From: Polytrichum commune
Taxonomy: Eukaryota; Streptophyta; Polytrichopsida; Polytrichales; Polytrichaceae
DNA: 64,000 nucleotides
Direction of reading: 5' to 3'
NCBI GenBank assembly: GCA_950295325.1
Contig: OX485805.1
Location: 3,348,501 to 3,412,500 of the forward strand
In this document: one piece after another, positions 4,885 to 63,910 of the stretch
Numbering within the stretch: position 1 is the first letter of the stretch
Layout: every line of letters begins with the position of its first letter
The notes under the pieces: generated by a model
The model's database searches: none
What the model was told of the DNA's origin: nothing
Seen by the model: only the letters and a program-made list of their open reading frames with translations
Program-made: the position numbers and the translations under genes

Positions 4885-7800
4885 ATGGCGTTGCTGCGCG
4901 CATCAGCCTTGTCGCTCTCGGCCGCGGCTTCTGCTCTTCAGCAGCCGCAGGGAGCCGCAGGAGGGGGTGCTTCCGGGCGCAATTCGGGAGCCGCAGGAGG
5001 GGGTGCTTCCGGGCGCAATTCGGGAGCCCGCCTGTTGTCGACGACGGCGACGACGAGCAGCAGCGGGAGAGGGGGAGCAGCGTTGAGTGCTTCTGTGCCG
5101 GCCGCGGCGTGGTTTGCGAGGAAGGGAGATAATGGGAGCCAGTTGCGGAGTGTGGGGATTTGCTGCAGCCAGAACCAGGACGTAATGCAGGTTTGGCTTC
5201 CTCCCGGCTCATTTCTGTGTCGTAGAGTTCGAGGTTCTGTGTGTGTGTGTGTTTGTCGGAGTTATCAGACGGGGTGTGGTGTGTGACCCAGTACGAGCTT
5301 GTTGTGGTAGAGTTGCCTCAAGGCGGACTGGAGTGGTCTTGTTGTAAGGTAACCGCGGAAAGGAAGCTGCGTAGTTTGAATTGGTTCTCGCTCCCTCGAA
5401 GATGTCGTAGCCGCGGAGGTTCTAAGTTGAAGGACGATTTCACTTCAGTAGTACTCTCTTGGCAATGCGGTCATGTGCTTGATGTTTTGCATTGTACGTC
5501 CACTCCTCTCAAAGCTGGAGGAATGCGACCAAATTCGCTCGTCCGGCTCCTTGCTCTGGTCGTTGTAAGGTAGGCGCAGAAAGAAAGTTCGTGTGAGCTG
5601 CGTAGTCTGAATTTGCTGCTTGATGTTTAGAAGATATTGTCGACGCGGTCAGGCGGAGACGACCTTACCCGGAGCTCTAAGCTCGAAAACGATTTGACTT
5701 CAGTATTTGCTCTTAGCAATGCGGTCATGTGCTTGATGTTAATCCTTCAATGTCCACTCCTCTCAAATTTGGAGGAACGCGACCAATTATCTTCTGGAGA
5801 GAGTTATCGTATCGCGGGTGTATGCTGCACACGTTAATATGGCACCCAGTACTTTTGAAGTACTCAGATTGCCGCGGGCACAAGAGCGGTCTTGTAAGGT
5901 GAGCGCAGAAAGAATTTGCGTGTGAGTTGAGCTTGAATTGCTGCTTGGTCTTTCTCGAAATGTCGTCGCCACGGTCATCCGGAGAGGACCTTACCCGGGT
6001 CTCTAAGTTGGGGTGCAATTTGGCTTTAGTAGTTTGTCTTGGCAATGCGGTCATGTGCTTGATGTTTAGCCCTGAACGTCCACTCCTCTCAAACTTGGAG
6101 GAACGAGACCAATTTCGCACCCCCAACTCCTTAGTCTGGTCGTTGTAAGGTAAGCGCAGAAAGAAAGTGCGTTTAAGCTGCGCAGTCTGAATCCGCGGCT
6201 TGCTCTCTTGAAGAGGTTGTCACCACTCTTATTTCGGGAGACGACCTTACCGGGGGCTTTAAGTTGAACGAAGATTTGAATTCAGTGGTTCTGCTCTTGG
6301 CAATGCGCTGATGTGCTTGATTTTGGCCTCGAACGTCCACTCCTCTCAAATTTGGAGTCATACGACCAAAACTGTTAGGTAAGCGCAGAAAGAAAGAAAG
6401 TGTGAACTGCGTCTGAAATTGCGGATTACTCTCTCGAAGACGTCGTCGCGACGGTTATCCGGAGACGACCTTACACGGAGCCTTAAGCTAGAGGACGATT
6501 TGACTTCAGTAGTTTTTCTCTTGGCAATGCGGTCATGTGCTTGATGCTAAGCTTTGAACGTGCACTCCTGTCAAATTTGGAGGAATGAGATCAATTTCGC
6601 TCCCCGACTCCTTGCTTCACCAGGTTGCATGCTGTGACGTTTGATGTGGCACCGAGTTTTTATTTACTTGGATTGCCACGGGCACATAGGGATACATGTG
6701 TTCGAGGTATACCTGTTTCTGTGGAATCATGTCTTATCTAGAGGATGACTTGAATGGAATGGTCATGTTTGTATTAAATATAGGGTTTCCCCTCGATTAA
6801 TTGAAACTTCAGAGTTTGTTTTGGTTTTTTCTACATCAGAGTTTTGTCTTATGTCTTTTGGTTTCCTTGTGTCAAAATTGAGGTCTTAGTATACTTGCTA
6901 CACAACTTTTGCTTTAGTCTTCCCGTTACATTTGGAGAGCTGTAGGAGAAACTCAAGTCAAGGATCCACCGGTGAACTCCAGTGGGGATGTCGAGGGAGT
7001 TGGCTTCTTCCGTCCAGGCAGTTTATTGGGGAGCTTATCCAGGCCCTATTCAAATGGCTTGCCGCCATTGGGCTATTACCTCTTGTGTGATGTCATTTCT
7101 ATATCAATCTGTTTATAGATTGATATTCCTTGTGCTTGCGTTGAACTGAGTGTGTGACTCTAAAAAGCTTCGAATTGATTATCTCTCTTGATTCGTATGT
7201 GGTGGGTTTCTGGTCACACTTGTCTGTAAGTGTTGGCTGAGCCTCGATACTTAAAAGGATAATAGTATTGCAAGTCTGACTTACATAGGGTGCAGCCTTT
7301 GGTAACAAGCCACGTTTATGAGTGCCATCACGGTCAAAGTACCTTGTTCACTAATTTTGAGAAGCTTGTTTCGTGATTGTGAAGGAGCTTGACAAGTCAT
7401 TGGAGACAAAGGGAGGGGTATCTCTCCAAGCCTTGCGGGACAAGCTTGCAGCTGGGGAATGGGAGGCTGCCGACGCTGAAACAAGGAGACTACTATGTGA
7501 ACTGGCTGGGGAGGATGCAGTGAAGAGAAAATGGGTCTTTTTCTCAGAGGTTCAATTCATTTCAGAATCTGACTTCAAGCTTATAGACGGTCTCTGGAGG
7601 GCGTACAGCAACAATAAGTTTGGCTACAGTGTGCAACGTAAGCTTTGGAACAACGCAGGCAAAAACTGGAATGGGTTTTTCAAGAAAGTTGGATGGACGC
7701 GTCCGCTGGATGAGTATCAAGAGACATACAAGAAGTTTCCCCTGGAATTCATGTGGGATGTTGCAGATCCTACCCCGGAAGGTCACTTACCCCTAACAAA

Positions 7801-20999: not shown

Positions 21000-21598
21000 A
21001 CATCAAATCCACCCTTCTCACGTAGAAGTCTCTGGCTACACCAAGTATTACTTGTCCCTAATGTTACAGGGACAAGCTACAGGTGGGCTTGCAGGGCGTT
21101 ATAAGACCTTCAGTGTGTTAGACTGATAAGCTTGCAGGGGGTTTTTATCTTGAAATATAATTTGTGTGCGTACCAGAAAGACAAAGCTGCAAAACAGATA
21201 ACCGCGGGGATTGCCTTCGTCTTCTTGATTCGAAGTCGATCTTAATAATGCTGATATGAATGTGGGAAAAAAGATCTCCAAATTACAACACTTGTGCTAG
21301 AAGTCTGAACCCACCTCATCTTCTCAGATTCTACAGTTACGAAAAACACTTATAATTCCACGAGTGCAATTCTATCCTCTCTGAGGGCTCAAGATCTCCT
21401 AATTTGAGTTCGATAAACCCTCAAATGGAGCATTCGGCTTGCACTAGTTGCCCATGACACGCAGCCACCTCCATAGCTTGTTCCGAAATCTCTTCTGAAT
21501 TGACATATGAAGTACATGAGATGGAAGGTGCCAGTAAAAACCATCTTCAAGCGTCTTGTTTCTTCAAGCGCTACATCGCCGGTGGTGTCGACACATTG
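21000..21598. other. Intergenic / 3' flank of the F-box gene
   Basis: No gene is supported. The last 100-200 bases next to 21599 are the probable 3' UTR of the minus-strand F-box gene. Confidence 0.4.
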
Positions 21599-23029
21599 CT
21601 AGACTAAAGTCGTCAACTGAAGCTCGATGGAAAACTGAATAGGCTCCGCATTATCCCAATTTCCACTTGGTCCGACAGCCTGAGAAAGTGACGGTGCTTT
21701 ACTCCAGACATCTAGGTTTACATCGTACACTAGGAGCAAGGATGTACCTGCTACAATGCAAATTTGACTCCCATGTCCAACACAAGCAACAGCAGCATCG
21801 TCTTCCCCAAACCACACATCACGTAAATCTTCAAGAAAATTCTCGGTTAACCTCGTGACCTGCCTCCATACCTTCTCCATTTTTTCTCCACGCACATTCT
21901 CATTCCCTCTGCTTCTAATCCCCTCCAAAGTTTCGCTCTCCAGCTTGAGGATGTAAACAAGGGTCACAATTCCCCCAAAACCGCGCCCAAGAACCATGTA
22001 AATCGACCCGCCACATTCCACCACTTGCGTCAACTGATAATCCCCGCGATCATCACGAGAGATTTCGTGCAAATTATTATCCCACACCTCGTTCTCTATA
22101 TCATACACCATCACACCAAGCTCACCACGGCTACAAATGGCCTCACAGTACAAAAAATTCCCACACACTGCAGCAGTCCGTCCATACGAGAACACATGCA
22201 ACGGGTGCTGTGCATCCACAACTCTCCACGCATTTGTCTTCGACTCATACACAGCAACACTTCGGACCATATCCGTGACGAAGTTGTGTCGAATCTTCCC
22301 GGCGATGATCAATTTGTAAGAATCAGTAGAGCAGTCTACCACAATGTGCGCTGACACGGACGGTGGCCATTTGTATGTAATCAATGGTAATTCCTTCCAT
22401 GTTCGAATTACGGGGTTGCACAAGAAGAGGCTAGCGTCGCCTCTAAAACATACAAGTCCTTTAGATGAGGCTACAGGCACCCGTGCCTCCTGAGGAAGAA
22501 AATCTAAAGGAGGCAGCCTCTGCCACTTCTTCAAACTGTGATTGTATCCAAAGAACACATTAAGAAAAGTGTTCCTATTCCTATTTCCCTCGCTCCTACT
22601 CTCAATATTCCTCCCTACCCTCGGAGTGTAATACTGTGCGCGTGATGCAATCACAGGGAAATAGGAATATTGCGGGACAAGCATCACGCGAGAAACCTTA
22701 AGAAATTCCGGAGTTAACGTAAGATTGTTCCACTGCTTACAAACTGCACGAGCTCGAAAGAGCTGCGCCACTGGTAGTCGCGCCAACACTCTTATTACAA
22801 TCTCTTCTGGTAATTTCGCCATTTCGCAACCTTCACTAGAGTTTTCATCCCCTTCGTTGCCTAAAACCATTTCCGTTGCCTGTATACTTGAAGGTTTCTC
22901 CGATTTTGAAGAATCCTGAACTACGTTTCCTAAGGACTGATCGATGACAACATCTGAAATCCTATGGTCGATGGTGCCGTGCCTCGGCAGTAAATTATCA
23001 GGCGCGTTTGAGGTGTGATCTTCATGCAT
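21599..23029 (-). CDS. F-box/kelch-repeat protein
   Basis: A single 476-codon exon is read from ATG at 23029. The open frame runs 29 codons further upstream, but a good 3' splice site (TTTGCAG) lies there, so the extra part is probably leader intron. Residues about 70-112 form an F-box: LPEEIVIRVLARLPVAQL, then RAVCKQWNNL. Kelch/galactose-oxidase-like blades follow: SLKKWQRLPPLDFL, GLVCFRGDASLFLCNPVIRTW, AVYESKTNAWRVVD, LGVMVYDIENEVW and WRQVTRL. Plant proteins of this type act as substrate receptors of SCF ubiquitin ligases; the F-box binds Skp1/ASK and the propeller binds the target. The acidic, Ser-rich first 65 residues look disordered. No premature stop. The target cannot be inferred. 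Confidence 0.9.
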   Translation of the reverse strand: MHEDHTSNAPDNLLPRHGTIDHRISDVVIDQSLGNVVQDSSKSEKPSSIQATEMVLGNEGDENSSEGCEMAKLPEEIVIRVLARLPVAQLFRARAVCKQWNNLTLTPEFLKVSRVMLVPQYSYFPVIASRAQYYTPRVGRNIESRSEGNRNRNTFLNVFFGYNHSLKKWQRLPPLDFLPQEARVPVASSKGLVCFRGDASLFLCNPVIRTWKELPLITYKWPPSVSAHIVVDCSTDSYKLIIAGKIRHNFVTDMVRSVAVYESKTNAWRVVDAQHPLHVFSYGRTAAVCGNFLYCEAICSRGELGVMVYDIENEVWDNNLHEISRDDRGDYQLTQVVECGGSIYMVLGRGFGGIVTLVYILKLESETLEGIRSRGNENVRGEKMEKVWRQVTRLTENFLEDLRDVWFGEDDAAVACVGHGSQICIVAGTSLLLVYDVNLDVWSKAPSLSQAVGPSGNWDNAEPIQFSIELQLTTLV

Positions 23030-23690
23030 TGTGATCAAAATTGAATCACCAGCCTGCAAAGCAAAGGCACAAAAATCCTCCTCAAGATGCCTTCCACTAA
23101 AAGGGACTAAAAGCAAGCCTCGGTACTTCGGTACTTAGATTTTCACCAATTTAACAATTCACGTGTAGAATTTGTTTGCTCCTTGGTTGATCAAAATATA
23201 AGCTTAATCATGTGAATAAGTTCTGCGCAATTCGAAAAGCACTCACTCCGCAGCTTCAGCTTCAAGGAAACTGGAAACCACCAAGTTTCACGACACACAA
23301 ACACCTCTATCCATCTACAAGGAATCCGGCGCAGAAAACAGGGGATAAGATGAGGTGCTTGTCACACATATCGTCACATACCTATTGGAAGGCTTATTAT
23401 TCATTCAAGGATCTCCCAACTTTACTGCTTAGGTGACCTACGCCATCCTCCGCCACTTACACCTACGTACACAAAACTTGCCTCTACTTACACCTTCAGA
23501 AACAGCTTGATAACAAGAAGCACCACATACACTCTACTTACACAGAAATCGCCGCAACTTACACTTCAAATACAGCTTGACCCACAAGCGTCGGAATCAC
23601 AAATGCCTCTAGCACAGAGAGAGCACAGAAAGCAACCCTGCGCTCCCAAAACCTCGCAAAGCCTCCGCCCTCGCAAACACGCCGCAACTC
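23030..23690. other. Upstream region and leader intron of the F-box gene
   Basis: The sequence reads as a minus-strand leader: a 3' splice site just before the ATG and several ATG-less short frames. From 23440 to 23690 it is CA/CT-rich with repeated 'cttacac' words. No other gene is visible. Confidence 0.4.
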
Positions 23691-24440
23691 ACAAGAACTA
23701 ATTATCTTTCCCTCACATCTTACCATGTGTCAGTCTTACATTGGCTTTCACCCCATGAATCTCACGTGGAAATTACATTCCGGTACTAGGAAGGATGAAT
23801 CAGAGCGCTGCGAGGGTTCCTTGCAGAGCCTCCGAGAGCGCAAGAAGCCGCGATTCACAACAACAAAAAGCGTGTCCCCCTCATAGGTCTACCACGTGTC
23901 GGCGTTAGATTGGCTGATACCTCTTGAATAAACACATGGAACTTGCATTCCGGCAACTTAGTAGAGGCGCCTATTCCTAATCAAGACCCATCAGTAATCT
24001 ATAGATCACCACGATTTCAATACGCTTGGGATCGAATTTCGATAAGGTCGGAACCAATAGTGCCATGACACATGTCCTAGTTTTTGAGTGCTAAAGTGAG
24101 GAGGAATGAGTGGTTATGGCAAGCTCCAGACATTGATAATATATTTGGGCCAACTTTTGGCTTCAAAAATTCACAATAATTTCGTTTTAAAGATTAAACT
24201 TACCCCAAAAAAATTTACAATTTTGCACTGCCTTATACTTCTCAAGATTTGGCGCAAAATCTCATAAGTGATTAGTTATGGATGCCTCTACTCTAATAAT
24301 GATGAAATAGAAGACGGGTTCCTCATAGAGCCTCCACAAGCGCAAGAAGCCATAGTTCATCCTCTACCACGTGTCAGTCTCACATTGATTGAGACATGCT
24401 AAATCCCACGTGGAAACTATGTTCCGGCACTACACTAAAA
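23690..24440. repeat. Block upstream of the F-box gene present three times
   Basis: The order 'cctc..agagc..caagaagcc', '(t)accacgtgtcag/c.(t)', 'ttagattggct' and 'cacgtggaaact..attccgg' occurs at about 23620-23790, 23820-23955 and 24310-24430. The second and third copies are separated by an inserted element (23958-24296). Each copy carries a CACGTG-type word, the core of plant G-boxes, so they may be promoter duplications. Confidence 0.65.
23958..24296. mobile_element. MITE with TAGAGTAGAGGCGCC ends, copy 1
   Basis: The ends are TAGTAGAGGCGCCTATTCCT and the inverse of TAGAGTAGAGGCATCCATAAC. Interior words 'aattCGATAAGGTCGGAACCAATAGTGCC.TGACACATGTC' (with changes) and 'ttggcgcaaaatctca' match copies at 38845-39229, 57289-57672 and 61644-62049. 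Here it interrupts a duplicated promoter-like block. Confidence 0.7.
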
Positions 24441-24826
24441 ATTGTACTTAGTGTTGCATGGTGTATTATGTCATTGTGGTAACTTTATTGAAACAAAGTT
24501 TGGTATATGTTGCATCCTAACACTCATGTAATGAAATGTGGTCACCCATTGTGACATGTTTGCTAATCTATCTTTCTTTTCAAAATGCTTTTACAGAACA
24601 GGATTAAGGTTTTTATAGAGCTACCCATAAATTGAAGGATGATTGAAATTTGGATGAAAAATCACTTAGTAAAATCTGTAATTTCCAACATCCTTTACAA
24701 GGAATGATAAACAATGTTAAATTTACATGTAGTATAAGTGACACTACATGGGCAGTTTGTTTGAAAAGTATGAAGAGAATGGCTACGGCCTCGATATGGA
24801 ATTGTTAGTCATCTTAGGGCCACTTC

Positions 24827-25316
24827 ACACACGAGACTGAGGGCCCATGACCATTACACTTCAAGCACTCTCATTGGTGGGAAAGGCGGAGCCAGTCCAA
24901 ATTCGCTTCACACTACGCTTGAGGGTTCAATAGAGTATGTGAATGCAAGATGGATGTAAAGTCTACATGGATTCCTACATGGCATCCAATGGACCATGTT
25001 TGATGGTCAATTGGACTATTGTTAAAAACCACCTCTTGGAGATAGGCCTAACACAAAACCAGGAGACCATGACACTCTGAACGCTCACAACCGTTGATTT
25101 ATTCTATTTTATTATGTGTGTAGATACCACATGAATATAATTTCATTGAAATAGCATTTGGTTGAGGGCCCGGTCACATATGACTTCACACTACACTTGA
25201 GGATCCATGACAACACTACATGATTTTGGAGGTGTGTTGGGACGGCCTTCGGACACTTTCTTTTGGGCTCTCACAATTTCATGGTCACGGCTCATGGCTC
25301 GTGTGTGAAGTGGCCC
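24827..25316. mobile_element. 490-bp Tourist-like MITE with TTA target duplication
   Basis: The element begins GGGCCACTTCACACACGAG and ends with its exact inverse CTCGTGTGTGAAGTGGCCC, flanked by TTA on both sides (24824-24826 and 25317-25319). A GG(G)C start and a 3-bp TTA duplication are typical of Tourist/PIF-Harbinger MITEs. Relatives lie at 36829-37310, 55591-56641 and 59200-59712. No ORF. It ends about 60 bp before the large Harbinger element. Confidence 0.9.
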
Positions 25317-25374
25317 TTATACTAATGGCTTGTTTAAAACCCTAGTACCTTCAAAAGTAACGAAATTGTTCTAA

Positions 25375-25391
25375 AACCCCTTCCCCACCTG
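25375..25391 (+). repeat. Left terminal inverted repeat of the Harbinger element
   Basis: AACCCCTTCCCCACCTG is preceded by the TAA target duplication. It pairs with 33721-33737 with two mismatches. Confidence 0.88.
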
Positions 25392-26026
25392 GTCTTAGCT
25401 AAGACCAGGTCTTAAGGCTAAAACCGCCTTTAGTGCCGGGCATTGGGTGGTACTGTATAAAGGTAGGCTTGGAAAGCCTGTACAGGCTGGGCCCTAATAC
25501 CCGGCCTGGTATTAGCTTAAGACTTTAACGACCTTCTTCACCTACGACCTTCACTAACGGGTTTATCCCAGCTTTCCGGCGTCGAAGCAAACTGTAAATC
25601 TGAAGCGGGCACATAGATAAAACGCAGGATTTTTCGGGAATCTGTAACGGCTTTCTAACTGCCATTCCAGACTGCGTGAACTCTTGCGGCCAACGGCAGG
25701 GTGATCGCTGAAACCACAGGGTTTAAGGGTCCTTCATAAGTAAACCGGTGCCGCAATCCACAAAAAATTTCTGGGCCTATGATTATATCGTTGGTGAGTG
25801 TTAAGTGTTTCGGCGGAAATTTGCGAGTTCCAATAGCCTGGGTGAGCTCAAGTGAAATTTGTGAGCCCAAGAGAAGGTTAGGAGCGCATCAGTGTTGGGT
25901 GTTCGCCGGGCTGCACTTCTCGCAGACCCGAGCTCTGTTCGCAGACGCCTCCTCCGAAAACTGCCGCCTTCGGCGCTTGTGACTGTGAATTTGGGTTTAG
26001 CCGTATGTGTGGGTGCAGGGTCCCTC

Positions 26027-26170
26027 ACCTGTAATTGGGTAGCCTCTGTAAATTGGGTAGCCTCTGGAATTTCAGTAGCTTCTGTAATTCGATAGCCTCT
26101 GCAATTCGGTAGTCTCTGCAATTCGGTAGCATCTGGAATTTCGGCGCCTCTGCAATTCAATCTGTCCCCG
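26027..26170 (+). repeat. Minisatellite of about 20 bp upstream of the transposase
   Basis: Six or more units of the type 'gcctctgNaattcggta' follow one another, degenerating at both sides. The array lies in the probable leader of the transposase gene; an unrelated 42-bp array occupies the matching position before the partner gene. Confidence 0.8.
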
Positions 26171-26702
26171 CAATCTGCAATTTCGGCGCCCCTCTTCCCC
26201 TTCCCAGCATTCGGCGCTACCAATTTCGCAGCCTGCTGCTCGTGGCCGAACCTCCCAGTATTGTTAGCTCATTCCGAAGCTCCTGTTAGCAGTCATGTAA
26301 CTCCCTCTCACTGGGTGCTGCCCATTTGCCGCCCTGCCTACTCCGATATTCAACACTGTTCTGTAGAAGCAGGGTTTCCAAACAATAACAGAGTCAATCC
26401 CTTTTTGCTCATACAGTGCAGTTCCCGATCCAATATATTGTTTTCAGATTCGCAAAAAAAACCAGAGTGTGGGGGAGCTGCCATAGCCACTGCCCAGAAG
26501 GTTGAGGTTGGAGGGTTTAAGGGCAACGTTGTCAACAAGACCTTGTGAAGTAATGATGACTATGGGTGGGTTGGGTGTTTAGAAGTGGGTTAATTGCTTC
26601 GGGGTGGTCCAATATTTGGATGACAAACAAGGTTTTACCTTAATGAAACAAAATTTTAATGTTGGTATTCTCATATTTATGATTGCAATTTCATGTGCAG
26701 GT

Positions 26703-28055
26703 ATGGATGGAGTTAATGATCCTGTAGAGCTCCTTTCTATTGTCTCGGCATTATTAATGATTCTTCTTAATGCCCACAATCTCCTAGTTGTGGCCTCCAT
26801 CCCTAATGAACCTCCCGCACATGACGATTTTAATGTGGATATGGAAGAGGGTGTGAGTCACATGCACAACATCCATTGCACCTCAATAGCCGCATTATAC
26901 TCCTTTCAACTATGGAATAACCTTCTACTAGGTGATCATGAATTACGGTATTGGGTGAAGCCACGATCTACTACATGGTTTTCTAGATTTGTCATTGAGG
27001 AGTACGATGACGACCGATGGTCCTCTTTGTTTAGGATGACCAAAGCGTCCGTTTTTGAACTCTCCCACCAACTTCGGCCTTTTATTGAAAAACAAAATAC
27101 TAACTACCGACTTGCAATTCCCGTTGTGGTACGTGTTGCATGTACGCTATTAAAGTTAGCACATGCAACTAATACGCGATTGTGTTCGGAACTATTTGCC
27201 ATTGGTCCCTCAACGGTGTCTAATGTGGTACATGATACATGTCGTGCTATTAACCTTGCCTTACGTCATGAAATTGCTTGGCCGATTGGAAACCGCCTTC
27301 TTCAAGTTCAAAATGATTTTAAGGTCTTGTGTGGATTGCCCGCCGTAAGTGGCGTTATTGATGGCACCCACATCCATATTTCCAAACCTAGGGTAGGCCC
27401 CGAGGATTACTTTTATTTCAAAACTCATGGTTATACAATGAATTGCCAAGCCGTAGTTGATAGTAGGAAGGTCTTTTTAGATTTGTTTTTAGGCATGCCC
27501 GGTTCGACCAATGATGCTAGGATGCTTCGACGCTCTAGCCTTTACCAACTTGCTATGAGAGGTGAATTATTTTCTCCATCCCTAGTTAGAGATGGATTTC
27601 CACCCTATCTTTTGGGTGACTCGGGGTACCCAAATCTATCTTGGTTAGTGACACCGCACCGTGGTAATAACCTCACTATGTTAGAAGCCCTCTATAATAG
27701 GAAACTACGTAGGGGTAGGGGGGTTGTGGAAAATGCCTTTGGGATTTTGAAAACGACTTGGAGAGAACTCTTAATAAAATCCGACCTTAATGTTGTGTAT
27801 ATGCCCGATGTTATTACCGCGTGTGCTATATTGCACAATATTCTAAGAAAACAAGTGAATGAAGATTTGGAGGCTTTGGGCGCTATGGTCAACAATGGAG
27901 GAGTGGAGGATGATGATGTTGATGCCTATTCGGATTCGGAAATTTATAATGCTTGTGATGACGGGGAACCCCATAGTAGAATTATAAATGACGGAGATGA
28001 ACTTCAACGTTTATTAGCCTTTTATCTAGGATCCCAAAGAGGTATAATAACATGA
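26703..28055 (+). CDS. PIF/Harbinger (HARBI1-like) DDE transposase
   Basis: The 450-codon frame encodes a DDE_Tnp_4 transposase. Catalytic residues are visible in order: D in SGVIDGTHIHISKPR, D in GMPGSTNDARMLRRS and E in GRGVVENAFGILK. Also present are ITACAILHNILRK near the end and an N-terminal helix-turn-helix-like part (LLKLAHATNTRL...GPSTVSNVVHDTCRAI). The start chosen is ATG 26703, because a strong 3' splice site (CATGTGCAG) ends at 26700. The frame is also open to ATG 26604, which would add 33 hydrophobic residues, and a spliced upstream start is possible. No frameshift or stop. The acidic C-terminal tail (EDDDVDAYSDSE) is common in the family. The protein cuts and rejoins DNA at the element ends, normally with a Myb-like partner that supplies end recognition and nuclear import. 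Confidence 0.95.
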   Translation: MDGVNDPVELLSIVSALLMILLNAHNLLVVASIPNEPPAHDDFNVDMEEGVSHMHNIHCTSIAALYSFQLWNNLLLGDHELRYWVKPRSTTWFSRFVIEEYDDDRWSSLFRMTKASVFELSHQLRPFIEKQNTNYRLAIPVVVRVACTLLKLAHATNTRLCSELFAIGPSTVSNVVHDTCRAINLALRHEIAWPIGNRLLQVQNDFKVLCGLPAVSGVIDGTHIHISKPRVGPEDYFYFKTHGYTMNCQAVVDSRKVFLDLFLGMPGSTNDARMLRRSSLYQLAMRGELFSPSLVRDGFPPYLLGDSGYPNLSWLVTPHRGNNLTMLEALYNRKLRRGRGVVENAFGILKTTWRELLIKSDLNVVYMPDVITACAILHNILRKQVNEDLEALGAMVNNGGVEDDDVDAYSDSEIYNACDDGEPHSRIINDGDELQRLLAFYLGSQRGIIT

Positions 28056-28531
28056 CCTTAGTTTACCTTTGGGAGAGTTATATATTATAGTACTTCTAGT
28101 GAAGCCTTATGGTTGTCAATGATACAATATAGTGTAGAAAAGTTGGTTATCAATCTAGTCTTTTGATGTATACATAATTTTCATTTATTATAATATATGC
28201 ATTATTTACATCGCATATGACCTTTAAACATATGTACAAAGTTTGAATACAAACACCACCATCCATATAGACTTCATTCATTGTATGTCTTCAAATGCAT
28301 TCAATATGGATTCATAGAATATGTTAATGTTACCTTCTCTAAATGTTACCTTCTCTAAATGCTATCTTCAAATTCATTCTATTAATGTTACCTTTTATAA
28401 ATGTTATCTTTCTTCTAGTCCCCACATATTGCACACTATAAATGTTAAACATGTTTAGTGTTATCAAAATGGTACACTATTCTTTTGAGACTTGACTATA
28501 TAAACGTTAACGAATGAACTATAACCCCAAT

Positions 28532-28741
28532 CACTAGAAGAAAGCTTATCCATTTCAACCGGCCTTGCGACTAGGTTATGGCGACTCGCACCCAAAATAT
28601 GCATAAACAAATCAATTTGGTTGGCACCCGGGGGGCACCCATGGGTGCCCCCCGGGTGCCAACCAAATTGATTTGTTTATGCATTTTCCCACCCACGAGT
28701 CGCGATGGCCTAGGTTGAAATGGACAAGTTTTCTTTTAGTG
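28532..28741. mobile_element. 210-bp CACTA-type foldback MITE with AAT target duplication
   Basis: The left end CACTAGAAGAAAGCTTATCC and the inverse of the right end CACTAAAAGAAAACTTGTCC match at 17 of 20 bases and resemble En/Spm (CACTACAAGAAAA) termini. AAT flanks both sides (28529-28531 and 28742-28744); CACTA elements make 3-bp duplications. The other inverted-repeat arm (about 30335-30375) lacks the insert and reads across the site, so it acts as an internal empty-site control. The core is an 86-bp perfect palindrome. Confidence 0.9.
28599..28684. repeat. 86-bp perfect palindrome
   Basis: Forty-three bases are followed directly by their exact inverse, with no spacer, centred on CCCATGGG at 28641/28642. 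It contains the G/C-rich core CACCCGGGGGGCACCC. Outside the 86 bases the stem continues imperfectly to the MITE ends. Confidence 0.95.
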
Positions 28742-30630
28742 AATATGGATGATAAAACCACACCTTCAAAATCATTCCCCTCTCTCTCTTCTAGATTTGT
28801 AAACCTCATATCGAAGCAAGTTTTGATTGGGTATGCTATTTTATGAATGGTATTATCTCACTAGGACTCTTCACAATTGCTTATATTTATAAATGCTAAG
28901 ATATGTATATTGCAAAAATAACTAATTTTATAGTTGTCAATTGTTAACACACTATAAGAAAATGGATGTCGAAATGATAGCCCAATTCCATGGTTCTAGA
29001 GATGGTTCTATTCCATGCAATTATAGAGTTTATAAATAACAAGCATGAAATATTGTAATGAAATTTTAGAATGAATATGTAGGAGTCATGGAAGATGTAG
29101 TACGTAGTGACTAATGTCACTAATTCCTTAATGGGACTTTAGTCACATTACTCACATCGCACTAACTTCATTGTCAATTTAGCGAAGACAAGTGAAAACG
29201 AGCATGACAAAGGGAAATGAAGATGGAAAAAATAACCAACACAAAATACACAACAAACACCCTGATAATCATTATGAAGCAGGCAAAAGCCCATGACAAA
29301 CAAATGTATAAAAAAACCCATAGTTGTATGCAACATGATGGAACAAGGCTAAAACTTTGAGTAACACTATTATGGGTGGACTTGGATCTAAGAATACACA
29401 CCAAAAGGACACGTGTTTTCATAGAGATTGGATTGCATTCTAGAAATATGCTAACGATGTTAGTTTCAATAATCAACATCATTGGGAAGACGAACCTAAC
29501 AACTTCATCAATAAGCACGAGAATTTTCATTTTCTCAATCAATAAGAAATTGATATGAGCTTCAAGATTAAGAGGTAAATGTCTCCATGCATGATTTAAA
29601 TGTAATTTTACGAAAGGTAAAATCTCACAAGAATATTTTACTATTGGTTATATCTACAAAAGTTAAGATTTGTATAATTGCGTCAAAAACTTATTTAGAG
29701 TTGTTCACTTTGATCCACTCCCGAGTGTTAACTTTTATAGAGGGTACACTGTATTAGTGTATACTACATTAAATATTCTTGAAATAAAGTTCATGTTTTC
29801 ACCTTTCCCCCTAAACTAGTGTACTTGGGAGTCATTTGCAAATACTTTTATAAAATTTATAGTTATGTAGGAATTTAATGGAACCCATAAGTACAAAGCC
29901 GAAACAAACTTATCACGCAAGATGTGCAATAAGGAAGACAAGCATGTAGACATTGTCCTTACATGATGGGATTTCAATTTAATAATATGATAATCACAAG
30001 TACGTTTACATAGAAGTGAAAGTGGCAAGCTCATGTTACAAAATATCTACATTGAAGGATTGTAAAAGCCACATATATTGTTTAGTGTACCCTCTATAGA
30101 GTTAAACCCTCAAGTGGATGAAAGTGAACACTTGTAGAAGTTGTAACAATTAACAACTATAAAGTAACGATTTTTTGCAATATACAAATGTTAACATTTG
30201 TGAATATAACCAATTGTAAAGAGACCTAGAGATATATTATTATTCATTAAATTGCCAAACCCAATCAAAACTTTATTTTATATGAAGTTTACCAATCTCA
30301 AAGAGATAGAGGGGAATCAAGTTTGAGGTGTGGTTTTATCTTCCACATTATGGTTGTATTACATTCGTTAACATTTATAGAGTCAAGTTTCAAAAGAATG
30401 GTGTACCATTTTCAAAACATTAATATGTTTAACATTTATAGTGTGCAATATGAGGGGACTAGAAGAAAGATAACATTTAGAGAAGGTAACACTCATATGT
30501 ATAACATTAATAGAGGGTGGACAATATTTAGGCAAGGTCATAACATCAAAAGGAAAAAAATGCTTATATTTAAATTTGTATTATATGCTTGAACTATTAC
30601 AAAAGAGAACACCCTATTAGCACACATAAT

Positions 30631-32598
30631 CTAAGGAGCCTCATTACTAGGTTCCGGGGAGGAAGCCCTCCGGGGAAAGTCATTGTGGCCCCTCAAACCT
30701 AGAGACAACACGCTAGAAATATTTCCTAGAGCTTTCACTATTTCTCCTTGTTTTAGAATCGCAAGGCGGGCGTTGTCGGCCGCAAGTAGACTTTGTTCAT
30801 ACACACGCATGTCACGTTCGCGTTGATACGCCATTTGCTCCGAAAAAAGTCGAAGTTGCACCTCTAATTTATTAGATTCTGTTTCTTTTGTCACGGATGT
30901 CATTTCCCTCATTGTGGTTGCAATAGCCTCCCCGGATGATTTAGCAACCTCTAGTAATGCCGATACTCCTACGGAAGACTTCTTCCTAATGGCCGTATTA
31001 GCAATTCTCCGTTTCGTAATGGAATGTGACGAGTCGGATAACAACACGGTACTCCCTTTTGGAGGAGGGGTAACTCCATACAATGGAGTACCATTTGGGA
31101 CACTCACCCCACCTAAAGGGTTAAGTCCTTGGCGGGACAACAAGGAGGGAGGTACCGGCCTAATGGGGGATCCATCCAACGGGTCACAATCCGTTGGAGG
31201 ATCTCTACTATCAATAACTTTTTTTCACTTGGTCAATATTTGGAGTAACATCCAAGCCTTCAATACTTGGCTCATTAATACTAAGGTCTACGACCTCTAC
31301 ATCATCCTCCATACTATCAAACTCCCCATGTGGAAACACATCATCATGGGGATTCAACAAATCCCGAACATAAGGTGGTTGAATTTGGGGCCTACGCCCA
31401 AACCACTCATGAATTTTTACATATATTTCTTTAGAAAAGGCTTTTGGTAATTTCTCCGCGGTAATTTCATTAGGGCTTAGTATCCAATAGTCCTCATTAT
31501 TTATACCCATGCGAGCATGGTAATCCGCAACACGGCGGTAATCGGGTAGGAGTAGGTGCCACTTACCCTTACAAGCCATACCATCACGGTAATGGGTAGA
31601 GAAACCGGAAGACATTATCTTATCCGAGATGCGGCTCCATTTCGTGACCTCGGAATCCATGAGGTCACGCCCATCAATTGCGTCAAGTTCTTCTAGGAAT
31701 TCCTCTCGTTTTGCGTCCACAAGCGCTATCATCTCATTCAAACTCCAATTTGGCCGCCTATCCCTACGTGCCTTTTGAGAATTCTCCCCTTGTGAATCAG
31801 AGGTAGATGGCCGCTTGCCGCGACTACGTGCGGGAGAAGCCATCGGAGCATGTTGTTGACGGCCCATACCTACCAAAATTATTATAAATTATAAATTTCC
31901 AATACATTTACCAACAAAGTGCCCCCCCTCCTAAACAGTTTCAAATATATACAATTTCAGTTTTGTTAATGAACACCAAATATGAATTCCAGCTTTTTCA
32001 AAACGCAGCTTAAACAGTTCACCCAAAAAACAGAGTAGTGAGCACACAGTGCACCCTAAACCTCTCTGTAACCAACCCCCTTCGGTGTACAGTGCAAAAG
32101 AAACCTCTCTATAACCAGCCCCTTCGGTGTACAGTGCAAAAGAAACCTCTCTGTAACCTACCCCCTTCGGTGTCCAGTGCAAAAAAACCTCTCTGTAACC
32201 AGCCCCTTCGGTGTACAGTGCAAAAAAACCTCTCTGTAGCATAGCCCCTTCGGTGTACACTGCCTTGTATCTTCAAGCAGGGATGGTTTCCAGGGCAGTT
32301 CAATCTGCAGCTAAACCCCAAAACCGGTATCCCTGTGGCCTAATTGCCGCTGTAGCCTAACCGCATCCCCCAGCTGAGCTCCTAATGAGGTGAGCAGTTC
32401 CTTCGAGAGGGGAATTCAGGAGCGGAAGATGAATTCTAAGTGAACACCGAAGGGGCGAAAAAACCAGCAAGCAAGCAAGCACTGAGAAAAAAAAAGTGTA
32501 AGTGCAGGTGAGTGGGACTCACCAAGGTGGGCGCCGAAGGGGGCATTAGGACTTGTGGGAACTCCACCGAAGGCCCAACCGCCACTGGGAGCTGCCAT
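30631..32598 (-). pseudogene. Harbinger Myb/trihelix-like partner protein with a one-base frameshift
   Basis: Exon 1 (32598-32523, starting MAAPSGGWAFGG) joins in phase to exon 2 (31869-30631) across a GT-AG intron. The first 220 residues include a trihelix/Myb-like domain: RRPNWSLNEMIALVDAKREE, then KWSRISDKI, GKWHLLLPDYRRV and EDYWIL. After Q-V-K-K the frame stops; the poly-T run at 31219-31225 (seven bases) is one base too long, and with the other frame the protein would continue into the 180-residue tail (KRRIANTAIRKKSS...SEQMAYQRERDMRVYEQS), a coiled coil. In PIF/Harbinger elements this protein binds the ends and brings the transposase to the nucleus. Either the gene is disabled in this copy or the run is a sequencing error. 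Confidence 0.85.
32061..32262. repeat. 42-bp minisatellite, five copies
   Basis: The word CCTCTCTGTAACC begins units at 32061, 32104, 32146, 32188 and 32229 (period 41-43). Each carries CCCCTTCGGTGTACAGTGCA. The period is close to a multiple of three, so long low-complexity frames appear on both strands; I do not take them as genes. It lies inside the leader intron of the partner protein gene. Confidence 0.9.
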
Positions 32599-32904
32599 AG
32601 CTTTCTGAGCTCCGATTCAGGTTCGGGCGAAAAAAAAACGGGGAAGCAGGTAACCGATTGGAAGCCTGGCCATCTATAACTTCAGAGTTCGAACAGACAG
32701 TGTACAGGCAGGACCTTCAACCATCAGAGCTATGTTTGAACTCAATGTTTACGCATCCCTTTTAAAGGTGGCCCCCGCTGGATTCGGCGACAGAGACCGT
32801 TGCCTTCAGAACGTTCTGCCAAATTGGATTTCGGCGAAGGGTCTTGCGGTAGCTGTAAGGAATGTGGCTCAATTTTGGGTCTCGCCTGTGATCCTCTCCG
32901 GCGA

Positions 32905-33290
32905 GGTGGTCGCCGATTTCGGCGGATTCTAACTGCCGTTGAATCGGAGCTCAGAAACGACTGTGATTTTGGTTGGGCCTGTAAATTGGCGCAAGGGTTC
33001 GACGGGAGGAATTCACTGAGAATCCTGTGAATGTTGAGTGTAAACTCAGTAGGAGTGGTCGCCGATTTCGGCGTTACAGGAATTCGTTGATATGAGTGTG
33101 AATGGCATTTAAATTCTTGGATGGGCCTGTAAATTTGCGCCCGGCTTGAACAGGAGGAATGTACTGAGAATGTTGGGTTTTTAGTGTAAATCCTCACGCA
33201 GGAGGTGGTCGCCGATTTCGGCGCTTGCAGAGTCCGGTGAATCAGACATGTGAAAATCAATTCAAATTTTTGGATGGGCCTGTAAGTTTG
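32905..33290 (+). repeat. Three copies of a 150-bp subterminal repeat
   Basis: GGTCGCCGATTTCGGCG occurs at about 32908, 33057 and 33208. Each is followed at similar spacing by 'tggatgggcctgtaaNttNgcgc', then 'ggaggaat...actgagaat'. Subterminal repeats are typical transposase-binding regions, but the left side of the element has no clear matching set. Confidence 0.8.
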
Positions 33291-33720
33291 CGCAGGGCTT
33301 CAAACAGTGGTTTCGGCGACGGAAAACTGAGTTTGTCTCGGTGCACTGAGTGCACCGTTGGTCGCAGCGGAGGTAGTTTGTTTTTGCGCTCCGAAAACTG
33401 CCGTTGGAGGCAGCGCGACAACCGGGATGCTGGTTTTTTTTTTGGGTTGGTAAGTTTTAGCGGTAATGTATTGTTTTGTGCGACGATAGCTAAGAGTGAA
33501 CCATGGCCAATCAGGTGGCGTCGTTGCTGCGGCTTAAGGACGCTATGATCCCTCCGCAGTGTTAGGGGCCCCCGGAAGCTTTGGAACTAAGACAGGAGGT
33601 TCGGCAGTAATACACCACCCGAACCTTTGTGCCACCTCAGCCCGGGCCCTAAAACCGGCCCCGGTGAAGAGGCCCAGTTTTAAGAACTTGGTTTTAGCTT
33701 AAAACCCATTGAGATAAAGT

Positions 33721-33737
33721 CAGGTGGAGAAGGGGTA
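33721..33737 (-). repeat. Right terminal inverted repeat of the Harbinger element
   Basis: CAGGTGGAGAAGGGGTA is followed by the TAA target duplication and is the inverted match of 25375-25391. Confidence 0.88.
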
Positions 33738-34054
33738 TAAGAAAAGGAAAAAGAAACGAAAACTTTATAGAAAAGAAATTGGGCCACATCACGGGTGGCC
33801 CGAGGAATGGGCCGGCCGGGTGACCCCCCAAAATACCGGGTGACCTCCACGGCGGGAGGACTTGGAAGGTTCTTCCCCCGAGAGCGTCGACGCTTTCTGC
33901 AAGACTACGTTACACACACTCGTAAATCCAAGATCGCAATTCGTTGTGGAGGAATCAAGTTCTATTTGCTACGTTGCACACACCATCTCACACAATCCTA
34001 CGAACAAGAAGAAGAAGAAAAGAAGTACAAGGTCAGCTAAAAGAATTTGCAGCC

Positions 34055-39552
<5,498 letters not shown>

Positions 39553-55590: not shown

Positions 55591-56641
55591 GGGCCACTTC
55601 GCACACGAGCCAAGAGCCGTGACCTTGTCATGGTGAGCACCCTTGCCTCTCGTCCAAAGGCCGTAGCATGGGTGTTGGGGAAGCCGTTTTATGTAGTCAC
55701 GGGCCCTCAAGCATGGTGTGAAGTGAGAATGGATCATGTTGCAGAAGCATTGCGTATTTTGTTGGCGGGAAAAAGAAGGGAGGATGGGGTTTAGGGGTTT
55801 AGGGTTTAGGGTTTAGGGTTTAGGGTTTGATATAACATGTCTCAAATTGTATCAGTTTAAGAGAATTACTTGGTGGTGTTTGCCTGTCCTGGAATTTGTC
55901 CTGCTGGATTTTTTATTTTTTTTAAGTCATGGTCTCCTAGAATTTGCGTTTGGCCCACGTCTTGGAGGTGGGCCTGACTAAAATTCCGGGAGACCGTGAA
56001 ACCTTATCCATAGTCTGCCATGTAGGACTCCATGTAGACTTTTCATCCATAAAATCTCCTTTGGGCCTTTAGGCCTTCACCTTTGTGTGTGAAGTGAACT
56101 TGGACGGTCTCCGCCCTTTCGACCAATGAGAGTTGTTAGATTGTAATAGTCACGAGCCAAGATCCACAACCATGAAATAGTGAGAGCCCAAAGAAAGTGT
56201 CCAAAGACCGTCCCAACACACCTCCAAAATCATGTTGGTCACGGGCCCTCAAATGTAGTGCGAAGCCATATGTGACCAGGCCCTCAACCAAGTGCTATTT
56301 CAATGAATTTCCATCCAAGCGTATCCTCACACATGATAAAACATAATAAATCAACGGTTGTGAGCGTTCGCACTGCCATGGTCTCTCAATTTTGTGTGAG
56401 GCCTACCTCCAAGAGGTGTTTTCGGAAAATAGTCCAAGTAACCATCAAACACGATCCATTCGATGCCATGTAGGAATCCATGTAGACCTTTACCATCCAT
56501 CTTGCATTCACATACTCCGTCGGTCCCTCGAGCGCAGTGTGAAGCGAACTTGGACCGGCTCCGCCTTCTCCTCCACCAATGAGAGTGCTGGAAGTGTAAA
56601 AATGGTCACAGGCTCTCAGTCTCGTGTGTGTGAAGTGGCCC
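55591..56641. mobile_element. Composite Tourist-like element, two related halves
   Basis: The outer ends are GGGCCACTTCGCACACGAG (55591) and the inverse ending CTCGTGTGTGTGAAGTGGCC then C (56641), followed by TTA; the left flank is CTA. Inside, the terminal half 'cacgagcca.gagccgtgacc' recurs near 56150 and the 'ccatgtaggaatccatgtagac' segment occurs twice (about 56020 and 56470). One element therefore seems to have inserted into, or recombined with, another. A telomere-repeat block (55790-55835) lies within the left half. Confidence 0.75.
55790..55835 (+). repeat. Interstitial plant-type telomere repeat (TTTAGGG)
   Basis: Five exact TTTAGGG units run from 55798 to 55832, preceded by one with an extra G and followed by a partial TTTG. 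The heptamer is the canonical land-plant telomere repeat. Confidence 0.95.
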
Positions 56642-57010: not shown

Positions 57011-57288
57011 ACTACTTTATAAAGAAGAGCGGAGGATGTGTCGATTGGCTTTCTGTGTCCTGTCACGGCCACTATTAAGTTAGTCCTTTTCAGCTCCCTG
57101 CCAGGGAGTTCTCCCACCTTTCTCCCTTCCCTTTACTTACTTTAGCATTTCCCCACACAACGGATCCGTGAACGGGGAGAACCGCCACCTACTACACTAG
57201 CGTGTAGGGGATTTGGGGGAACCAACCCATACACTCGTTTTTTGTTGGATGTCTAAATCTTTGTATGGGTTGGTTTGCCCCAGCAAGT

Positions 57289-57672
57289 GTAGAGGCGCCC
57301 ATTATTGATCACTTGAGAGATTCTCCGCTCGATTGGTGAGGTATGAGGTGGTGTAAATTTCCCCCCCCCCCCCCGTGAAGGAAGTTAGAGAACACGAGGG
57401 TTGCCCAGAAGAAGAAAAAAATTGGTGATTTTCTTCTTTACTGTGGATGTTTGGAAGCCAGACGTTGGACCCGACATGTTACCAATGTCTAGAGTTTGTC
57501 ATCACCACCACTTGTTTTTTACTGTTCATTTGTTCTCGTTTTGGTACTTGAAACCAGGATATGTGTCAAGGCACTATTGGTTCCAGTTTGGTTGAAATAT
57601 AGTTCCAACATGATTGAAATTACGGTACCCTCTAGATTGCCGATGGGGTATTGGTCGGGAACAAGTGCCTTT
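57289..57672. mobile_element. MITE with TAGAGGCGCC end, copy 3 (inverted)
   Basis: TAGAGGCGCCCATTATTGATCA then 'cttgagagattctccgc' is the inverse of the right end of the 38.8-kb copy. 'gatttgccgatggggt..tggtcgggaacaagtgcc' is the inverse of its left end, where the terminus is damaged. It contains a C14 run at about 57361. Confidence 0.65.
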
Positions 57673-59199: not shown

Positions 59200-59712
59200 G
59201 GGCCACTTCACACATGAGCCAAGAGCCTTGACCATGAAACAGTGAGAGCCCAAAAGAAAGTGTCCAAAGGCCGTCCCAACACACCTCCCAAACCACACAG
59301 TGTGATCACAAATCCTCAAGTATAGTGTGAAGTCATACGTGACCGGGCCCTCAACCAAATACTACTTCAATGAATTCTAATCACGCACGGTCCTCACACA
59401 TGCTAAAATAGAATAAATCAACGGTTATAAGCATTCGCAGTGCCATGGTCTCCCGGTTTTCTGTGAGGCCTACCTCTACGAGATAGTTTCTAAAAACAGT
59501 CCAAGTGATCATGAAACATGATCCATTCGACACCATGTAGGAATCCATGTAGACTCTACATCCATCTTGCATTCACATACTCCGTTGGTCCCTCAAGCAT
59601 AGTGTGAAGCAGCGAACTTGGACCGGCTCCGCCACAGTTTTCCACCAATGAGCGTCACTGCTTGAAGTATCATAATGGTCACGGGCTCTCAGTCTCGTGT
59701 GTGAAGTGGCCC
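59200..59712. mobile_element. 513-bp Tourist-like MITE
   Basis: Begins GGGCCACTTCACACATGAG and ends CTCGTGTGTGAAGTGGCCC. It is an inverted-orientation relative of 24827-25316, with 'aacacacctcc.aaa', 'catagtgtgaag' and 'atgtaggaatccatgtagac' in the matching order. The flanking triplets (AAA, TAC) do not match. Confidence 0.82.
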
Positions 59713-60091: not shown

Positions 60092-60390
60092 AGGAGTAGA
60101 TTCCAAGGATGTCGATCGAGAAGCTTTTTATAATGCGCCCTCGTGCGGTGGTGATAAGAACACGGTGGAGGAATATGCTCCGTGCAGTGAAGCTCAGCCA
60201 CAAGCACGGCGACACCTGCCTTTAGGACTTTGACAACTAGACACTCCACCAAACGGCCATGAAAGTGTGGATGGATCCCAACTTCCCAAGTTTGAAAGAA
60301 AGTCCGTCCCAACCTCCGTCTCGATTCCCGGTGCAGTGTCCGGGGAATTTGTTGGGGGCAGAATCGGTTGCGATCCTGGTGTTTTTCCAA

Positions 60391-60640
60391 GTCCGATCGG
60401 TTGCATGTTGATGTTTTCGTGTCTGATCGGTTGCATGTTGATGTTTCCATGTCCTATCGGTTGCATGTTGATGCTTTCATGTCCGATCGGTTGCATGTAG
60501 ATGTTTCCATGTCCGATCGGTTGCATGTTGATGTTTTCATGTCCGATCGGTTGCATGGTGATGTTTCCATGTCCGATCGGTTGCATGTTGATGCTTTCAT
60601 GTCCGATCGGTTGCATGTTGACGTTTCCATATACAATCGT
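60391..60640. repeat. 30-bp minisatellite, eight copies
   Basis: The unit GTCCGATCGGTTGCATGTTG then ATGTTTCCAT repeats with an exact 30-bp period from 60391 to 60630, with a ninth broken unit. Units alternate between GTTTTCAT/GCTTTCAT and GTTTCCAT, a 60-bp higher-order pattern. Since 30 is a multiple of three, frames stay open on both strands (minus: repeated MQPIGHGNIN). Confidence 0.95.
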
Positions 60641-61643: not shown

Positions 61644-62049
61644 CTAGAGTAGAGATGCCTATAACCAAGCACTTAAGAGATTCTACGCCAAATCTAGAGA
61701 AGTATAAGATGGTGTGATTTTTTCCTCATGTAGGAAGATAGAAGTCAGGAGGGTCTGCAAATAATTTGTAATTTTATTCTTTAAATTGAAGTTATTGTGA
61801 TTTTTTGAAGTCAAAAGTTGGCCTGTACATATTACCAATATCTAGAGTCTACCGTAACCGCTCATTGAACTTCTCATTTCCTCCTCATTTTTAGCACTCA
61901 AAACCAAGACACGTGTCATGGCATTATTGGTTCTCGCCTTTACCAAAAATTAGTTTTAGTCATATCAAAATTTCGTCCCAGCCTAATCGAAATTCTAGTA
62001 CCCTATAGATTGGCAATGGGGTCATGGTCAGGAATAGGCACCTCTATTA
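61644..62049. mobile_element. MITE with TAGAGTAGAG ends, copy 4 (inverted)
   Basis: Begins TAGAGTAGAGATGCCTATAA and ends 'ggtcaggaataggcacctctatta'. The order of interior words is the inverse of 38845-39229 and the same as 57289-57672. Confidence 0.7.
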
Positions 62050-63508: not shown

Positions 63509-63910
63509 ATTCAATGCTCGGGGAGATTTGGTGGTTAGTTGGAGTTTGAGAAATAACCGGTGGAAGTTGGAGACTTCACGAGAATTACCGATCGTTTTAG
63601 AGGAATCTATAGAAGAATATACCTCAAATGGATAAAGCAAAACCGGAAGATGTCAACATGTAACCGGTTGGATTTAGAATCACTAGGATCTTAACCGACT
63701 ATGCCTAAGAACTTCCCAATAGTGATTTTAAATCCAACCGGTTATATGTTGACATCTTCCGGTTTTGCTTTCATTCATTGGGGTATATTCTTCCATAGAT
63801 TCCTCTAAAATGATCGGTAATTCTCCTAAAGTCTCGAACTTCCACCGGTTCTTTCTCAAACTCCACCGGCTCATGTGCAACCAACTGCCGATTCTCCCCG
63901 AGCATTGAAT
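63509..63910. repeat. Foldback pair of the 'ACCGGTTG' repeat
   Basis: The left arm (63509-63685) and right arm (63720-63910) are inverted copies with about 34 bp between them. Shared words: 'attcaatgctcggggaga', 'tggagtttgagaaa.aaccggtggaagtt', 'gagaattaccgatc.ttttagaggaatctat', 'aaaaccggaagatgtcaacat', 'aaccggttggattta.aatcacta'. Together they would fold into a hairpin with stem of about 175-190 bp. Confidence 0.88.

Follow-up and report, generated by a model that had tools for sequence, protein, structure and literature searches.

An 8,363-bp element of probable PIF/Harbinger type with convergent transposase and Myb/SANT-like genes in plant DNA

Results

Genes and features of the locus

The window, that is, the whole 64-kb stretch of DNA analysed here, reads as plant nuclear DNA. 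It carries a GUN4-domain segment, a zinc-binding dehydrogenase and an F-box protein with an At3g26010-like propeller match, and nothing was found in it by a tRNA scan or by Rfam at gathering scores. Positions 25375-33737 are occupied by an 8,363-bp element with a transposase gene and a Myb/SANT-like gene and with TAA on both sides (Table 1). The mobile element is recognisable and mostly ordinary in kind.

Table 1. Coordinates of the element and of its parts in the window
Feature	Position	Strand	Remarks
Target-site duplication TAA, left	25372-25374	.	Adjoins left TIR
Left TIR AACCCCTTCCCCACCTG	25375-25391	+	15/17 against right end
Perfect 24-bp palindrome	25387-25410	.	Inner edge of left TIR
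Left non-coding flank	25392-26702	.	17-bp tandem array 26029-26158; five TTCGGCG
Transposase reading frame, stop to stop	26583-28055	+	Open
DDE_Tnp_4 domain	27357-27839	+	Pfam match
Spacer inverted repeat, left arm	28380-28946	+	Parts 28380-28531 and 28742-28946, MITE between
Nested 210-bp CACTA-type MITE, CACTAGAAGAAA...TTTCTTTTAGTG	28532-28741	.	AAT at 28529-28531 and 28742-28744
Third, partial arm copy within loop	29546-29835	+	Alignment
Spacer inverted repeat, right arm	30144-30497	-	Partner of 28380-28946
Myb/SANT-like gene, continuation in another frame	30631-31224	-	197 aa
Myb/SANT-like gene, first frame	31211-31888	-	ATG 31867 or 31843; stop soon after seven-A run
Right non-coding flank	31889-33720	.	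42-bp array 32058-32263; 148-bp array 32967-33303; seven TTCGGCG
Near-palindrome GGTTTTAGCTTAAAACC, right-end copy	33690-33706	+	Pattern scan
Right TIR TACCCCTTCTCCACCTG (reverse-complemented)	33721-33737	-	15/17 against left end
Target-site duplication TAA, right	33738-33740	.	Adjoins right TIR

The likely start of the transposase, ATG 26703, directly follows an acceptor-like TTTCATGTGCAG and gives a protein of 450 aa. The match to DDE_Tnp_4 (E 2.6e-29, 102.3 bits, cut-off 24.8) identifies the product as a DDE transposase, with further Pfam matches to Plant_tran (1.9e-10) and DDE_Tnp_1 (1.7e-8). Similarity to phrog_4716, also a transposase, reaches E 1e-5, and that to the IS5 family is weak (E 0.0021, far below the cut-off). 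As originally predicted, all three catalytic acidic residues are kept; assigned by motif and numbered from ATG 26703, these are D220 (codon at 27360), D306 (27618) and E343 (27729). Relatives of the transposase were not found in viral contigs, where none of six peptide patterns matched, and a sequence search of the PDB gave no match at E up to 1. AlphaFold models built without an alignment had a mean pLDDT of 35.1 for the transposase and 38.7 for the first Myb/SANT frame and were not used.

The partner gene is tentatively classed by a Myb_DNA-bind_4-like stretch (PF13837) at 31756-31517, with E 3.3e-5 and 24.6 bits, under the curated cut-off of 27. Its reading frame changes inside a seven-A run of the minus strand (a T-run at 31219-31225 on the plus strand). 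The second frame was without Pfam hits up to E 0.1; a single weak match (E 0.0029) leads to a phage family of unknown function.

State of the copy

Autonomy would take both genes open, and the Myb/SANT-like gene is broken as assembled. Characterised relatives require both proteins, so the prediction of a complete element with both required proteins is only partly supported: the transposase is open, but its partner is not. The copy would therefore need the partner protein from elsewhere, unless the frame change is due to sequencing, is spliced out or is bypassed. Any of these, whether an error in the homopolymer, removal of an intron or slippage on the A-run, would leave the copy fully autonomous, which we regard as possible though doubtful. 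The position of the change within seven A's fits such an origin, as do the two frames, each otherwise long and open, but no single frame exists in the assembly. Likewise, 435 GT-AG combinations would restore a single open frame ending at the same stop, yet a number of this size can arise by chance and carries little weight. The element as assembled is probably not autonomous.

Transposase gene and Myb/SANT-like gene, on the plus and minus strands respectively, converge; some other Harbinger elements have opposed genes as well. That they do so across an inverted-repeat spacer had been foreseen and holds with one correction, namely that a 210-bp MITE splits one arm. The arms of the spacer are 80-92% complementary by piece. 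The insertion in the left arm, absent from the original prediction, is palindromic, ends in CACTAG...TTAGTG, and is classed as a CACTA-type MITE by its CACTA...TAGTG ends and 3-bp duplication. At the counterpart place the right arm is uninterrupted; the inverted repeat thus came first and the MITE later. Together with the broken Myb/SANT-like gene, the MITE in the spacer suggests that this is probably an ageing copy, movable only with a partner from another copy.

Two other accounts of the spacer were tried and rejected. As a nested transposon with a duplication of its own, the inverted repeat offers only a shared 8-mer, CATATGTA (28229 and 30494), which is unconvincing. An inverted duplication spanning everything between the two stop codons is not supported either, since outside the arms 44 of 200 and 107 of 200 shuffles aligned as well or better. 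Because similarity there is shuffle-like, the outer parts of the alignment were left uncounted.

Terminal inverted repeats and target-site duplication

The two ends, AACCCCTTCCCCACCTG and TACCCCTTCTCCACCTG, are identical at 15 of 17 bases, and TAA adjoins each of them, both in agreement with the original prediction. A TIR length of 17 bp lies inside the superfamily range of 14-25 bp given in PMC2213677, and the TAA pair is a 3-bp target-site duplication of the TWA type. The outermost bases, A and A, are non-complementary, so that the TIR starts with (A/T)ACCCC and reads (A/T)ACCCCTTCYCCACCTG. Elsewhere in the window the core 16-mer is matched only at 7449-7464, with 3 mismatches.

The genes could belong to the superfamily and the true ends nevertheless lie elsewhere or be decayed, the TIRs with their TAA being a chance pair. 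An identity of 15/17 by itself is not rare: without the TAA condition, among some 8 million pairs near the ends, it is reached by the claimed pair, two one-base shifts of it and one unrelated pair, 25960/32547. Among the 380,989 pairs of the whole window that lie 2-12 kb apart and are flanked on each side by the same triplet, TAA or TTA, however, the claimed pair is the only one with at least 14/17, and 20 locally shuffled windows gave no pair at 15/17 and 0-3 each at 14/17. A scan for alternative ends around both genes (left 21001-26688, right 31868-38000) gave none better. With any identical 3-bp flank, 4 pairs there reach 12/14, but only the claimed one is flanked by TWA, and no other TWA-flanked pair with at least 12/14 was found between these two intervals. 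The only occurrence of the pattern TWA plus G[G/T]NNNNGTTTG in the window is at 63535, far from the element.

Two published observations speak for a chance pair. The TIRs are unlike the 17 plant TIRs tabulated in PMC6327408 and PMC2213677, and in PMC2213677 one element had first been bounded by unrelated TIRs, so that a TIR together with a target-site duplication can mislead. The present ends are kept despite that case because of the subterminal evidence: inverted similarity and near-palindromes lie directly behind both of them. A chance pairing of the ends is accordingly improbable.

Subterminal regions

Aligned in inverted orientation, 25392-26000 and 33100-33720 score 86, whereas none of 200 dinucleotide shuffles exceeded its maximum of 68; the direct alignment scores 43, against a shuffle mean of 40. 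Less favourably, a blastn comparison of the whole flanks recovered nothing but short pieces, some direct and some inverted, with a direct 15-mer as the best (E 0.007). An inverted match at the ends pairs 25376-25425 with 33736-33690 at 74% (E 0.025).

The near-palindrome GGTYTTAGCYTTAARACC or a close variant occurs at 25391-25406, 25408-25425, 25508-25524 and 33690-33706, and when three spellings of it were scanned across the 64 kb with up to 3 mismatches, all matches fell at those four places. Single patterns exceed shuffles only modestly. One has 3 matches where 0.59 are expected, with as many in 3 of 100 shuffles; a shorter form has 8 (5 at the ends, 3 elsewhere) against 3.79 expected, equalled in 4 of 100. 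Of the 13 copies of the heptamer TTCGGCG in the window, 12 lie within the two non-coding flanks of the element. Five are in the left flank, all on the plus strand, and seven in the right, six plus and one minus, making 11 of 12 on the plus strand; whole-window shuffles contained 1.92 on average and 6 at most. None of 349 control segment pairs elsewhere had a comparable 7-mer, defined as at least 4 copies in each segment and 80% of all copies in the window. These motif statistics are descriptive, since the motifs were picked after viewing the sequence.

Tandem arrays, which the original prediction had not noted, are present in both non-coding flanks. Measured in 400-base steps, the outer non-coding flanks have for the most part a G+C content of 48-54%, and the spacer one of 28-38%.

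Within the 64-kb window no second copy of the element was found, and its repeats offered no empty site. The one repeat in the window that covers the left flank reaches to 25323 under one scoring and to 25333 under another, at least 41 bases before the insertion point, and the right flank has no convincing repeat partner in the rest of the window.

Discussion

The gene content, the ends and the bordering TAA most probably mark a plant PIF/Harbinger-type DNA transposon with exactly these boundaries, a degree of confidence that we would call high. This identification, already made in the original prediction, is well supported by the ends, the Pfam matches, the D-D-E residues, the subterminal similarity and the scan for alternative ends.

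Domesticated copies usually lack TIRs and a target-site duplication. A transposase-derived, domesticated host gene pair in place of a transposon is highly improbable here: the transposase frame is open, and co-domesticated gene pairs from the superfamily are described for insects in PMC9710019, but TIRs and TAA are kept, in contrast to one domesticated cockroach case (PMC9710019), and the partner gene is broken.

Comparison with known elements

The transposon was compared with the plant PIF-like elements maize PIF, OsPIF, DcMaster, MtMaster/MtPH and PePIF1, as described in PMC6327408 and PMC2213677. Generally, these share with it TIRs and a 3-bp duplication (mostly TTA/TAA), a DDE transposase and a variable gene order; they also have a second gene with a Myb/SANT motif, to which the Myb/SANT-like gene is the candidate counterpart. 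According to PMC2213677, subterminal tandem repeats, as found in this element, are known from one Medicago subfamily, and nested insertions, as here, from long plant PIF-like elements. Its size, its tandem arrays and its nested insertion thus all have precedents among published plant elements. Captured host sequence is reported for grapevine Pifvine-3 (PMC2528002) and was considered as a possible source of the long flanks here.

At 8.4 kb the element had been called large for the superfamily. Its 8,363 bp do exceed the usual 4-6 kb given in PMC5543537, but fall within the published 2.2-25.3 kb, the span of 22 TIR- and TSD-flanked Medicago elements (2,180-25,288 bp) whose gene order varies (PMC2213677).

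Differences concern the termini, the gene arrangement and the introns. All 17 plant TIRs tabulated in PMC6327408 and PMC2213677 begin with G, and 16 of the 17 contain GTTTG; this pattern, a regularity of those tables and not a formal definition of the plant PIF-like type, differs from the (A/T)ACCCC found here. The genes of PePIF1 lie head-to-tail (PMC6327408), and those here are convergent. A limited literature search, by listings and by passages of some papers, gave no description of plant PIF/Harbinger genes as convergent, and the orientation is not claimed as new. One or two transposase introns are given for 13 of 13 Medicago core elements listed in PMC2213677, and three transposase exons for PePIF1 in PMC6327408; in the present element the domain and the likely coding region are in one exon as far as seen.

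Rice Ping/Pong belong to the same superfamily, and two proteins are required there (PMC2836001, in passages). The present transposase could fall in the PIF or the Pong subgroup; its best Pfam match is to DDE_Tnp_4, and that to Plant_tran is weaker. The animal Harbinger3_DR likewise has a transposase and a Myb-like protein, the latter binding the ends and being needed for nuclear localisation of the transposase, according to the same passages of PMC2836001. It differs in host kingdom and in TIR.

Possible mode of transposition and significance

The ends, the TAA on both sides, the open DDE frame and the subterminal motifs shared by the two flanks are directly seen. Most likely the usual superfamily mechanism applies, with binding and movement argued from relatives. 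The Myb/SANT-like protein would bind repeated sites near both ends and, once bound, may bring the DDE transposase to the TIRs; this enzyme would then excise the element and insert it at TAA, with duplication of the TAA, by cut-and-paste as in relatives.

A further reading, offered tentatively and judged rather unlikely, is that the element represents a distinct plant PIF/Harbinger lineage. Its marks would be termini that start (A/T)ACCCC, genes that converge, and long subterminal regions, in which TTCGGCG in the same orientation at both ends and the GGTYTTAGCYTTAARACC near-palindromes might constitute a two-part end recognition, different from the one in PIF and Pong elements, whose ends are short.

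Though a single copy, the element enlarges the set of well-delimited plant PIF/Harbinger transposons by one that has unusual termini and candidate binding sites. Should it belong to a family sharing these ends, a comparison among the members would tell whether the subterminal TTCGGCG sites are recognised by the Myb/SANT-like protein.

Other repeats and features in the window

Beside the 8.4-kb PIF/Harbinger element, 58 bases to its left, lies a 500-bp MITE-like repeat, which we take to be Tourist-like. Its termini (GGGCCACTTCACACA, 15 bp) are perfect and TTA flanks it on each side. Within the window it is 82-84% alike to two relatives, one sharing the same ends but flanked by AAA and TAC, without a duplication, and the other having one good end. 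A further dispersed repeat family is represented at four places, with likeness varying from 66 to 83% by piece. Inside the PIF/Harbinger element is a palindromic CACTA-type MITE with an AAT duplication, the 46-bp inner arms of which are 98% complementary.

Tandem and direct repeats also occur, including GGGTTTA units, of the plant telomere repeat type, at a site internal to the window. Separately, one gene segment carries a GUN4 domain (PF05419, E 7.3e-51).

Positions of repeats and other features within the window
Feature	Position	Details
Overlapping direct repeats, clustered	5421-6616	224-bp period in one of them
GUN4-domain gene segment	7361-7936	
MITE-like repeat	24817-25316	
Relative, same ends	59200-59712	
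Relative, one good end	56151-56641	
Dispersed family	23960-24297, 38849-39229, 61645-62046, 57286-57670	
CACTA-type MITE	28532-28741	
GGGTTTA repeat	55787-55828	5.9 units
30-bp tandem repeat	60363-60639	minus strand, within open frame; units MQPIGHENIN-like
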